The notes beneath the pieces were generated by a model. The model worked only from the letters and a program-made list of their open reading frames with translations, made no database searches and had not been told where the DNA came from. Made by a program: the position numbers and the translations under genes. Positions 12,815 through 34,218 of a stretch of 34,218 bases of DNA are shown here, piece by piece; the stretch's first letter is position 1, and the number at the start of each line of letters is the position of its first letter. Origin of the DNA: Actinomycetota bacterium (GTDB lineage: Bacteria; Actinomycetota; Thermoleophilia; Miltoncostaeales; Miltoncostaeaceae); the NCBI GenBank assembly GCA_947475125.1, contig CANJMX010000003.1:1-34218 (forward strand), read 5' to 3'.

Positions 12815-13759
12815 GTGGCCATCTCACGCCCCGAATTGGAGGCGGCCCTGGGGCATCCGGTGCTCCTCATGGTGCCGCCAGACGCCGACCATCCGGTCAC
12901 CATTGCGGTGTCGGTGGTGGGTGAGCCGGCACGCGTGCGCGCCGCATGGGTACGTGACACCGGAGAGGTGCTGGCACGCGTCGCATGCCCTCCCGGCGTT
13001 CCCAGCGCCGTTCGCCCAGCCATCGCGGCAATCGTGGAGGTCGCAGAGAACGGCGTGTCGGATCGGGTCATTCTCGGCCGTGTGTCGAAGGGCATCACGG
13101 CCGCCCGGCTTCTGGTGGCCGACCCGGATCCGATCACCGTGGCGGTGGCGGACAGTGGGCTGCTCGCCGCCCGGATCCCCATGGGCATCGCAGTGGTGGC
13201 GCTTGAGGTGCTGAGTTCCGAAGGCGAGCCCATCGGGCGCCTCGACCACACGGGGTTCACCGAGCTGCGTCTCGTGGCCGGGCGGCTCGAGGGGCATCTG
13301 GGATCAGGTCACGGGATGGCCGCGGGCTTCGGGGCCGGTGACACGGTGGCCGACCTGGCGATTGCAGAACTCGAGGCGGGGTACGCGGCGTGTCTGCCCA
13401 CATGGCTTCCCGACGGCTTCTCGCAGACAACCGTGCGCGTGGAGCCCGAGGCCGCGTACCCCTTTGCCCCGCCCGCAATCGCCCTGTCATGGACCGGGGA
13501 CGGAGACTCCCGTGTGCTCTTACGGCAGTGCCCTGGCCCGCTGGCGGTCCCCGAACTCCCCGATGCCCGGGGGCGGGCCGTGGATCTCGGGATCGCCACC
13601 GGCGTCCTCCGCGGCCGCGGGCGCGGTATGTCATTCGTTGTGTGGGAGGCCGGGGACCGCGCCTTCGGTCTGCAGGTGCGGGGTGTCGATGACGTTGACG
13701 CAGTCGCAGTGATGGTGGCCTCATCCGTGCCCGCGGCGCCTGCGCCGCCGATGACATAG
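12815..13759 (+). CDS. hypothetical protein; C-terminal part vaguely DUF4367/MucB-like
   Basis: 314 aa ORF; C-terminal CLPTWLPDGFSQTTVRVEPE..AIALSWTGDGDSRVLLRQCPG..VVWEAGDRAFGLQVRGVDDVDAVAVMVASS. Confidence 0.65.
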   Translation: MAISRPELEAALGHPVLLMVPPDADHPVTIAVSVVGEPARVRAAWVRDTGEVLARVACPPGVPSAVRPAIAAIVEVAENGVSDRVILGRVSKGITAARLLVADPDPITVAVADSGLLAARIPMGIAVVALEVLSSEGEPIGRLDHTGFTELRLVAGRLEGHLGSGHGMAAGFGAGDTVADLAIAELEAGYAACLPTWLPDGFSQTTVRVEPEAAYPFAPPAIALSWTGDGDSRVLLRQCPGPLAVPELPDARGRAVDLGIATGVLRGRGRGMSFVVWEAGDRAFGLQVRGVDDVDAVAVMVASSVPAAPAPPMT

Positions 13760-13768: not shown

Positions 13769-14194
13769 ATGGCTGACGCATATACCCACATCGCCTGCTG
13801 CCTCGATGGGTCGGCGGCTGGTGACGCCGCTCTGGCTGCATCGATCCGAATGCACTCGCTCGGGCCGGGCAAGCTGACCCTGATACACGTGACAGAGCCC
13901 GGGCTCGCCTACGCCGGATTCTCAACCGATGCCGGGCTCGAGAATCTCGACACCGTGCGCACGTGGATGAAGAACACTCTCGCCCTGGCCCCCGGCGCCG
14001 ACGGCGTGCTCCTCGAGGGACACCCGGCCAGCGCCATCTCCGACTGGGCAAAGGAGAATGGCGTGGACCTGCTGGTGGCAGTGCGCCATCGCGGCCGCGC
14101 GGAGCGGATCCTGCTTGGAAGCTTCGCCCAGCACATGACGTACAACGCACCCTGTGCCGTGCTTCTTGTGCACCCGCCTGCCCCCGCGGGGTAG
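13769..14194 (+). CDS. universal stress protein (UspA family)
   Basis: YTHIACCLDGSAAGDAALAASIRMH..LTLIHVTEPG..RHRGRAERILLGSFAQHMTYNAPCAVLLVHPP. Confidence 0.9.
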   Translation: MADAYTHIACCLDGSAAGDAALAASIRMHSLGPGKLTLIHVTEPGLAYAGFSTDAGLENLDTVRTWMKNTLALAPGADGVLLEGHPASAISDWAKENGVDLLVAVRHRGRAERILLGSFAQHMTYNAPCAVLLVHPPAPAG

Positions 14195-14248
14195 GAGCCT
14201 CCCCCTTCGCGTCGAATCCGTCCCCGGACACCACGACCCGGAGGACAC

Positions 14249-14599
14249 ATGCCCGTCCACGCTCTCCCCGCCCCCGTGCGGGTACACATGCTCACTCCGC
14301 TGAGCTTCAACGACGCCCAGGAGATCGGCGACCGCATCAAGTCGGGCGCCTCGGTCTTCATGGACGTACGCACCACCGATCGCGACCTCGAAGAGCGGCT
14401 GCGCGACTTCGTTGGTGGCCTCGCATCCGCGCTCGATGGTTCGGTCACCGATGTCGCCCACGGCATCGTGCTTGTGGCGCCCCACGGTGTGAACGTCTCA
14501 GGTGCTCCCGGATCGCAGGCGGACACGTCGCATGACGACTACGCCGGCTACCGCGACGACCGCGACGTCACGCCGATCTTCGGGCGGCGCTCAGCCTGA
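14249..14599 (+). CDS. SepF-like cell division protein paralog (DUF552 family)
   Basis: LTPLSFNDAQEIGDRIKSGASVFMDVRTTDRDLEERLRDFVGGLASALDGSVTDVAHGIVLVAPHGVNVS aligns with the SepF encoded at 33351-33920; SD GGAGGACAC-ATG. Confidence 0.88.
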   Translation: MPVHALPAPVRVHMLTPLSFNDAQEIGDRIKSGASVFMDVRTTDRDLEERLRDFVGGLASALDGSVTDVAHGIVLVAPHGVNVSGAPGSQADTSHDDYAGYRDDRDVTPIFGRRSA

Positions 14600-14622: not shown

Positions 14623-14961
14623 GTGATCTACGACGGCAACTGCCGGTTCTGCCGTGCGTTTGCGCATGTGGCACGCCGGGCGGCACGCCCGCCCGGCGTG
14701 CGCCTCCTCCCCTTCGGCCATCCGGCCGCAGAGGCCGTGCTCTCGTCGCTCCCCGGTGACGACCGGTACTCATCGGTCCATGCCCTCCGGGGCCGCGAGC
14801 TGTACTCGGCAACCGACGCATTTCGCGTCATCCTGTCGCGCCTGCGCGGCGGCAATGTCTTCATACGCACACGCGCGTACCGCATCTATCCCGTTGTGGT
14901 GCGGCACCGAACAACGATCGGACGCTTTGTGCCGGATATGAGCCAACCGCCGATCGACTGA
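14623..14961 (+). CDS. DCC family thiol-disulfide oxidoreductase (DUF393)
   Basis: VIYDGNCRFCRAFAHVARR (DxxCxxC), GRELYSATDAFRVILSRL, FVPDMSQPP; start may lie further upstream. Confidence 0.88.
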   Translation: MIYDGNCRFCRAFAHVARRAARPPGVRLLPFGHPAAEAVLSSLPGDDRYSSVHALRGRELYSATDAFRVILSRLRGGNVFIRTRAYRIYPVVVRHRTTIGRFVPDMSQPPID

Positions 14962-32581: not shown

Positions 32582-33346
32582 CTACAGCTCGGCGGCGCGG
32601 CGGGCGGCAGCGCCCAGCGCGCGTTCCACGATGCCTGCGGCCCCTGCATCGTCCATGACCGCGATGCATGCCGCGGTGGTGCCACCCGGCGATGTCACCC
32701 GCGCCTGCAGCTCGGCGGGATCCTCGCCATCCGCCAACAGGCCGGCGGTACCGGCGATGACCGCCTGCACCATGGCACGGGCATCAGTTCGCGAAAGCCC
32801 GTGGGCGACGCCCGTGTCCTCCATCGCCTTTGCGATATAGGCCATGAACCCGGGGCCACTGCCGCCGATGGCGGTCGCAACATCGAAGAGGGCCTCATCC
32901 ATCACCACGACGGCGCCGAGGGGGGCCAGAAGGGCTCTCACGGCCGACACGGCCTCGTCGTCGAGACCCGTCGTCGCCATGGCCACGACCCCGTTGCCAT
33001 TGGCCACCGCCAGATTCGGCATCAGCCGTACCACCGGATGCCCCGGAACGGCGGCGGCGAGGCGGTCAAGCGACCAGCCCGCGGCAACCGACATCACAAC
33101 CGAGCCCACAGAAAGGCGGGGAGTGATCGCCTGGAGCGTCGCCGCGACGTCCTGGGGCTTCACTGCGACCACGACGACGTCGCAGTTCGCAGCATCGCCC
33201 GCGAGTACGCCGAGAGATGACGCCACATCCTGAGCGCGCCCGGACATCGCATCCTCAACGATGACCGTCGTGAACGGGGCGAGGCCGGCGGCGAACGCGC
33301 CGCCCATCGCCCCGACCCCAACGACGCCGATGGCGGCGGGCGTCAC
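32582..33346 (-). CDS. proC: pyrroline-5-carboxylate reductase
   Basis: IGVVGVGAMGGAFAAGL, VVAVKPQDVAATL, VRLMPNLAVANGNGVVAM, TAIGGSGPGFMAYIAKAMEDTGVAHGLSRTDA. Confidence 0.95.
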   Translation of the reverse strand: MTPAAIGVVGVGAMGGAFAAGLAPFTTVIVEDAMSGRAQDVASSLGVLAGDAANCDVVVVAVKPQDVAATLQAITPRLSVGSVVMSVAAGWSLDRLAAAVPGHPVVRLMPNLAVANGNGVVAMATTGLDDEAVSAVRALLAPLGAVVVMDEALFDVATAIGGSGPGFMAYIAKAMEDTGVAHGLSRTDARAMVQAVIAGTAGLLADGEDPAELQARVTSPGGTTAACIAVMDDAGAAGIVERALGAAARRAAEL

Positions 33347-33350
33347 AGAA

Positions 33351-33920
33351 TCAATACTGGTTGAAGAAACCCTTTTCGAGGAGACGCGCGCGCTCCTCGG
33401 CCGACACCTCGACGTTGCGGGGAGTCAGGAGAAATACCTTGTCCGCAATGCGGGACATCCCGCCGTCGAGCGCATACGTAAGCCCACTGGCGAAGTCGAT
33501 GAGGCGCTTCGACAGATCCGTGTCCGCCGACTGCAGGTTGAGGATCACGGGGACCGTGCCCTTGAACTTGTCAGCGATCTGCTGCGCGTCGTTGAAGGTG
33601 CGCGGGATGATGAGGTTCACCTCGACGCCACGATTGTTCCTGGGTGAGTCCACTGCGCGGATGTTCCGCGAGGGGGATGGCACGCCCGGGTCCGAGTAGA
33701 TGTCGTCGAAGTCGTCGGCGCCACGCGATGAGGATCGCCCACGCGAACGGCCACGCGACGACTGATGGTCGTCCCGCGAATGCCGGTCGTCATCGCGCAC
33801 ACGCGCATTGGTTTCCCGGTCACCACCCTCGTGCTCGTCGTACTCGTCGTATTCGTCGTAGCCGTCATCGGCCATCCCGAAATACGCCAACGTCTTCTGC
33901 CAGTAATCGTTAATCGCCAT
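33351..33920 (-). CDS. sepF: cell division protein SepF
   Basis: VEVNLIIPRTFNDAQQIADKFKGTVPVILNLQSADTDLSKRLIDFASGLTYALDGGMSRIADKVFLLTPRNVEVSAEE; acidic/Arg-rich linker; next to yggS, proC, yggT. Confidence 0.96.
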   Translation of the reverse strand: MAINDYWQKTLAYFGMADDGYDEYDEYDEHEGGDRETNARVRDDDRHSRDDHQSSRGRSRGRSSSRGADDFDDIYSDPGVPSPSRNIRAVDSPRNNRGVEVNLIIPRTFNDAQQIADKFKGTVPVILNLQSADTDLSKRLIDFASGLTYALDGGMSRIADKVFLLTPRNVEVSAEERARLLEKGFFNQY

Positions 33921-34218
33921 CTACGGCTCCATCCGCCCTTGGTCGACGATGCCCCTCCCGACGCGCACAATGGTAGCGCCCGCCTCCACGGCAACGATGA
34001 AATCCTGCGAAGTCCCCATTGAGAGATCCCGCAGGTCATGCTCATTTCCCCATTTCAGAGCCAGCGCGTCGCGGAGCAGGCGCACTCGTTCGAACCAGGG
34101 TCGTGATGCCTCGGGGTCCTCCGCAAACGGCGGCAGCGCCATCAGCCCCCCCACTGTCACCCCGGCCATACCTGCTGCCGCCAGGGCGCTATCGAGCTCG
34201 TCGGGAATGAACCCCTGC
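33921..34218 (-). CDS. YggS family PLP homeostasis protein, 5'-truncated by window
   Basis: QGFIPDELDSALAAAGMAGVTVGGLMALPPFAEDPEASRPWFERVRLLRD..DLSMGTSQDFIVAVEAGATIVRVGRGI; frame open to window edge. Confidence 0.93.
   Translation of the reverse strand, partial: QGFIPDELDSALAAAGMAGVTVGGLMALPPFAEDPEASRPWFERVRLLRDALALKWGNEHDLRDLSMGTSQDFIVAVEAGATIVRVGRGIVDQGRMEP

Follow-up and report, generated by a model that had tools for sequence, protein, structure and literature searches.

The uspA–sepF2–DCC locus

The window analyzed here, meaning the whole stretch of DNA of 34,218 nucleotides, carries two genes for SepF, the membrane anchor by which Actinobacteria hold FtsZ via its tail, and a search of the whole source genome returned exactly these two (Table 1). 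The canonical copy announced by a first-pass annotation, sepF1, was real and lies on the minus strand. The other, sepF2, codes for a product of 116 amino acids that matched the Pfam SepF profile PF04472 over residues 12–83 (62.6 bits, 4e-17; curated cut-off 27 bits) and SepF chains of the PDB at 1e-7, and that shares about 35% identity with SepF1 across their common core. The profile score above the cut-off, together with the alpha/beta core fold described below, kept the product within the SepF family, in agreement with its initial description as a paralog. Coding conservation of sepF2 begins at the annotated ATG, and the start codon and the GGAGG motif are fixed across the genus. Nothing beyond weak and distant matches was obtained when a plasmid collection was searched for SepF.

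Table 1. Coordinates of the features considered in the window
Feature	Position	Strand	Basis
uspA-family gene, upstream neighbour	13769..14194	+	Pfam Usp
GGAGG ribosome-binding site of sepF2	14240..14244	+	5' of ATG in all genus copies
sepF2, second SepF-domain gene	14249..14599	+	Pfam 62.6 bits; own clade 99/99; in 16/20 genus genomes
N-terminal segment MPVHALPAPVR, in place of SepF1 membrane helix and linker	14249..14281	+	pN/pS 0.20 (residues 1-19)
SepF core domain, residues 12-84	14282..14500	+	Pfam; pLDDT >90; TM 0.93 to 3zih
Helix alpha2 changes E49 (K101), R52 (I104), S60 (Y112); G57 (G109) kept	14393..14428	+	Column comparison; B. subtilis numbering
D68, at the position of C. glutamicum K125 (contact with the FtsZ tail)	14450..14452	+	Alignment to 6sat
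V74, at the position of C. glutamicum F131 and B. subtilis F126 (contact with the FtsZ tail)	14468..14470	+	Alignment
Linker after SepF2 core, no alpha3	14501..14554	+	pN/pS 0.83; pLDDT <50 over residues 87-106
Constrained C-terminal motif DDRDVTPIFGRRSA	14555..14596	+	Genus consensus; pN/pS 0.28
DCC1-like thiol-disulfide oxidoreductase, downstream neighbour	14623..14961	+	Pfam DCC1-like
proC-like gene beside sepF1	32582-33346		Named from sequence only
sepF1, canonical SepF	33351..33920	-	Pfam SepF 84.1 bits; helix 3-13, core and alpha3 174-182 in model
yggS-like gene beside sepF1	33921-34217		Named from sequence only

The position of sepF2 between uspA and a DCC oxidoreductase, also given by the first-pass annotation, was confirmed by Pfam matches of both neighbours. 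In the genus, uspA is followed by sepF2 and the DCC1-like oxidoreductase and then, in many cases after a ferritin-like gene, by an M32-type peptidase, apt and a MerR-type regulator, these last three being named from sequence only. The gap between uspA and sepF2 measured 53–57 nt in 15 of the 16 genus genomes carrying the gene; in the window this spacer (14195-14248, 54 nt) is strongly conserved, with CCGG repeats before the ribosome-binding site. Signs of a conserved RNA structure in the spacer were weak, with a covariation term of just -0.21 kcal/mol and no convincing covariation. Just upstream of uspA, a protein of 314 amino acids (12815-13756) is conserved in the genus; compared with Pfam and NCBIfam it gave no confident family, the best match being DUF4245, below the cut-off. 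In one genus genome (G007 C6:24897-25306, L039) the uspA adjoining sepF2 is split over two frames, which may come from a frameshift in the assembly or from decay of the gene.

Distribution, descent and selection

Of 20 genus genomes, which represent uncultured aquatic actinobacteria of the order Miltoncostaeales (class Thermoleophilia), 16 carry the gene; a model built on the paralogs gave SepF2 194–219 bits vs. 76–90 bits for SepF1. Three of the four genomes without sepF2 are only 64–67% complete. The fourth, G012, is 96% complete; a true loss there is unlikely and an assembly gap likely, because the DCC oxidoreductase and M32 peptidase genes next to the locus are also missing from the assembly. 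A sister-genus genome (G028) has an ortholog 47% identical at a syntenic locus. Three genomes of the family without sepF2 (G023, G030, and G041) present the ferritin/M32/apt block and no usp-sepF2-DCC; the cassette was therefore either acquired within the g1 + g10 lineage or lost outside it.

By sequence comparison, sepF2 is under purifying selection and is laid out as a core, then a free linker, then a constrained terminal motif: the median pN/pS was 0.20 in residues 1–19, 0.28 in the core, 0.83 in the linker and 0.28 in the tail, the latter computed on the last 16 alignment columns. The acidic tail previously attributed to the protein is thus mostly unconstrained linker, and its conserved part is limited to the last ~14 residues, with a consensus D-V-T-P-[LI]-F...A-COOH throughout the genus that we treated as a putative binding motif. 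At the other end of the protein, M-x-VHALP is invariant, sister genus included.

In a tree of 76 columns, genus SepF2 and the G028 ortholog formed one clade (support 99/99) apart from canonical SepF. A separate SepF paralog clade (99/97) was obtained for a second Thermoleophilia family, f2. In the phylum sample, multiple SepFs occurred in few further lineages, namely a three-copy family with genomes of 8–10 Mb, which we take to be Streptomyces (hence Streptomyces-like), f45, and one f25 genome. In a second tree of 76 columns the Streptomyces-like copies joined their own SepF1 (81/83) and the SepF2 clade was placed elsewhere (99/98); deep forks of these trees are weakly supported because the alignment is short. 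Descent of SepF2 from the Streptomyces paralogs was therefore not supported, since these branch with their own SepF1, and the clade is distinct from both canonical SepF and the Streptomyces-like paralogs. Another genus of the family (G024) contains a very divergent second SepF at a different locus (L048:3277-3597), which attaches to the SepF2 clade on a very long branch, a placement that is unsafe. Its stretch GQVLPFRRP resembles AQVVPLRGR of the shortest Streptomyces-like paralog.

The neighbourhood of sepF2 bears on one alternative, in which the SepF fold would have been co-opted outside division, such as for a stress cassette that also comprises Usp and the DCC oxidoreductase. sepF2, Usp and DCC stay together in the genus; in G028 the three lie within 3.3 kb with ferritin adjoining, in a different gene order; and among 12 genomes tested DCC was limited to SepF2 carriers, barring one weak match. 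Co-location, however, does not amount to function, and the divergent second SepF of G024 is found elsewhere in its genome and without DCC. We consider such a co-option unlikely.

Predicted structure and contact residues

The AlphaFold model of SepF2, based on 57 aligned sequences, reached pLDDT >90 in the core, with modelled elements E12-15, H22-31, E35-39, H45-62, E65-70, and E73-77, and was disordered from residue 87 (pLDDT <50 across residues 87–106). In Foldseek searches the model gave TM values of 0.93 to B. subtilis SepF (3zih) and 0.82 to C. glutamicum SepF. SepF1, modelled by the same procedure, displayed an N-terminal helix (residues 3–13) and a C-terminal helix alpha3 (residues 174–182), whereas alpha3 was absent from the SepF2 model. 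An N-terminal helix was not predicted in SepF2 either: about 11 residues, with two to three prolines, precede beta-1, and therefore there is no room for an N-terminal helix of the SepF1 type plus the charged linker. This bore out the claim that SepF2 is devoid of both elements and the protein is probably soluble, as had also been put forward. The hydrophobic moment of the N-terminus was tried as a test for a membrane helix and did not discriminate.

The SepF2 core aligned without gaps to the SepFs of C. glutamicum (6sat) and B. subtilis, and residue columns were compared between 55 SepF1 and 15 distinct genus SepF2 sequences. The position of C. glutamicum K125 was Asp in 15/15 SepF2 and Arg or Lys in 55/55 SepF1, and that of F131 (F126 in B. 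subtilis) was Val, Ile or Leu in 15/15 SepF2 and Phe or Tyr in 55/55 SepF1; the genus genomes share one ancestor, and each 15/15 counts as one inherited change. In the G028 ortholog the K125 and F131 positions hold Arg and Val, respectively. Loss of the K125-type residue is thus specific to the genus, and the Asp, being invariant across the genus, seems to reflect a newly acquired constraint and not decay. In C. glutamicum, FtsZ-tail binding was no longer detectable with the double mutant K125E/F131A (PMC7118173), and in B. subtilis the F126S change impaired the interaction of SepF with FtsZ (PMC5717166). The proposal that SepF2 acts via FtsZ binding was consequently weakened by these replacements.

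At the putative dimer face, helix alpha2 showed both retained and replaced residues. The equivalent of B. subtilis Gly109, required for SepF polymerization, is retained as G57, whereas conserved alpha2 residues of SepF1 were replaced in genus SepF2 (K101 by Glu, I104 by Arg, and Y112 by Ala or Ser), as were the strand residues I89, N91, and Q93 (by Phe, Asp, and Arg, respectively). Judging from helix periodicity and the published four-helix bundle, the changed alpha2 positions would face the dimer partner, and these three substitutions do not favour the heterodimerization of SepF1 with SepF2 that had been suggested. Taken together, the conservation of these surfaces does not support a SepF2 that would both bind FtsZ and form heterodimers with SepF.

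Mixed polymers of the two proteins are a serious rival explanation, because the published FtsZ-blind mutant (K125E/F131A) co-assembles with wild-type or endogenous SepF, giving extra rings (PMC7118173). SepF2 would then be a dominant modulator that mixes into SepF1 dimers or polymers and, as a protein blind to FtsZ and free of the membrane, poisons arrays of SepF1 and FtsZ or trims them. Its changes hit both positions of that mutant, the glycine needed for polymerization is present, and the polymerizing sheet is without the alpha3 lid. The alpha2 and strand replacements listed above speak against this model; moreover, the toxicity of free SepF in B. subtilis depends on membrane binding (PMC5717166), which SepF2 probably lacks. 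We regard this modulation as rather unlikely.

The tail offered a further alternative, that the C-terminal motif may mimic the C-terminal peptide of FtsZ, fill the SepF1 pocket and compete with FtsZ. Its consensus YYDAMDADVTPLFRSMSA resembles the end of the genus FtsZ1, SFDSGDALDVPSFLKDS (DVTPLF vs. DVPSFL), and it is constrained beyond the neutral linker. The likeness was tested against 937 C-termini and shuffles. The best two tails (L037 and L039) were equalled by just 0.3–0.6% of background C-termini, a marginal result, whereas most other tails had shuffle p values of ~0.06–0.1 or worse, and the SepF2 tail also contains an extra Thr between V and P. For the window tail mimicry was rejected as non-significant, with 20% of background C-termini scoring equally and shuffles matching about half the time. 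Competition of this kind is very improbable.

Proposed role and comparison with known SepF proteins

Two full-length FtsZ genes occurred in nearly every sampled Thermoleophilia genome (e.g., G000:C32:11667-12626; L123-L142), and a search of a collection of papers for two FtsZ in this class found none. The genus FtsZ2 keeps its GTPase motifs, but its long terminal tail, rich in Pro and Glu, has lost the conserved peptide to which SepF binds. SepF2, whose pocket is altered at the peptide contacts, might accordingly be imagined to serve FtsZ2, an altered pocket meeting an altered tail. Three genomes of the family (G020, G022, and G026), however, have a peptide-less FtsZ2 and no SepF2; a SepF2-FtsZ2 pairing was rejected for this lack of co-occurrence, and there is little chance that it explains the gene.

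The second SepF gene is a genuine SepF-domain protein, a repurposed relative rather than a spare copy. The interpretation that we prefer, and to which we give about an even chance on the basis of sequence and models, is that SepF2 would be a neofunctionalised soluble adaptor of the SepF fold with an accessory role in division, and not a second membrane anchor for FtsZ. The protein would keep the alpha/beta core, self-associating probably through the two-helix face, without the membrane helix or the alpha3 lid. The grip of the pocket on the FtsZ tail would be lost via the Asp at the Lys/Arg position and the aliphatic residue at the Phe position, even if aliphatic residues could retain some hydrophobic peptide binding. 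SepF2 may thus work as a small cytosolic SepF-like adaptor, independently of the canonical pocket for the FtsZ tail, its partner being contacted by the C-terminal DVTP[LI]F...A motif and the N-terminal VHALP segment. Its likeliest job would be an accessory tuning of division, with SepF1 polymers, the Z-ring or a further protein of the divisome as target, and perhaps linked to stress because of the Usp/DCC/ferritin neighbourhood. Its partner and its connection with division are both inferred, and Usp/DCC/ferritin is not a division cluster.

A conserved SepF relative seemingly without both defining activities suggests that the SepF core can take another role, and D68, V74, R52 and the VTP[LI]F tail are the exact residues that make this repurposing testable. 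Should SepF2 act by tuning SepF1, this lineage with its two FtsZs would possess a natural regulator made out of the anchor protein. The second SepFs of f2 (G047, G057, G067, G072, G077, G082, and G092; L063-L069) lost the K125-type residue in 7/7 cases and the F131-type Phe in 6/7; the independent loss of the same contact residues, together with the two FtsZs per genome, adds interest to SepF2. A broader and doubtful proposition is that FtsZ-tail-blind SepF paralogs emerged on two or more occasions in Thermoleophilia and work either as in-built antagonists of SepF or as adaptors for a second FtsZ system that has given up the FtsZ tail; if true, the K125E/F131A mutant made in the laboratory would have its natural equivalents in them.

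Among known systems, the extra SepF copies of Streptomyces (SepF2 and SepF3 of S. venezuelae; SflA and SflB of S. coelicolor) are comparable to sepF2 as additional copies, and the shortest Streptomyces-like copy also resembles it in having neither an N-terminal helix of the SepF type nor the FFNQ end. Unlike SepF2, all three Streptomyces-like copies have Arg and Phe at the K125 and F131 positions; SepF2 of Streptomyces links to the dynamin DynB (PMC8748795). The second SepF of f2 is likewise a separate paralog clade that lost the Arg and mostly the Phe, but it is an independent branch that kept the SepF-type N-terminal segment and an FFNQ-like end. Archaeal SepF-like proteins (3zie, 3zig, and 7al1) have the SepF core in common with SepF2, with lower similarity (TM to target 0.75–0.83); as in SepF2, no alpha3 is predicted for the SepFs of archaea, and archaeal SepF binds FtsZ (PMC8178401). 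Canonical SepF (6sat, 3zih) is like SepF2 in its core fold (TM 0.82–0.93), the Gly109-type glycine and the Pfam SepF match, whereas SepF2 differs from it by the lack of the N-terminal amphipathic helix and alpha3, by the replaced equivalents of K125 and F131, and by conserved N- and C-terminal motifs of its own.
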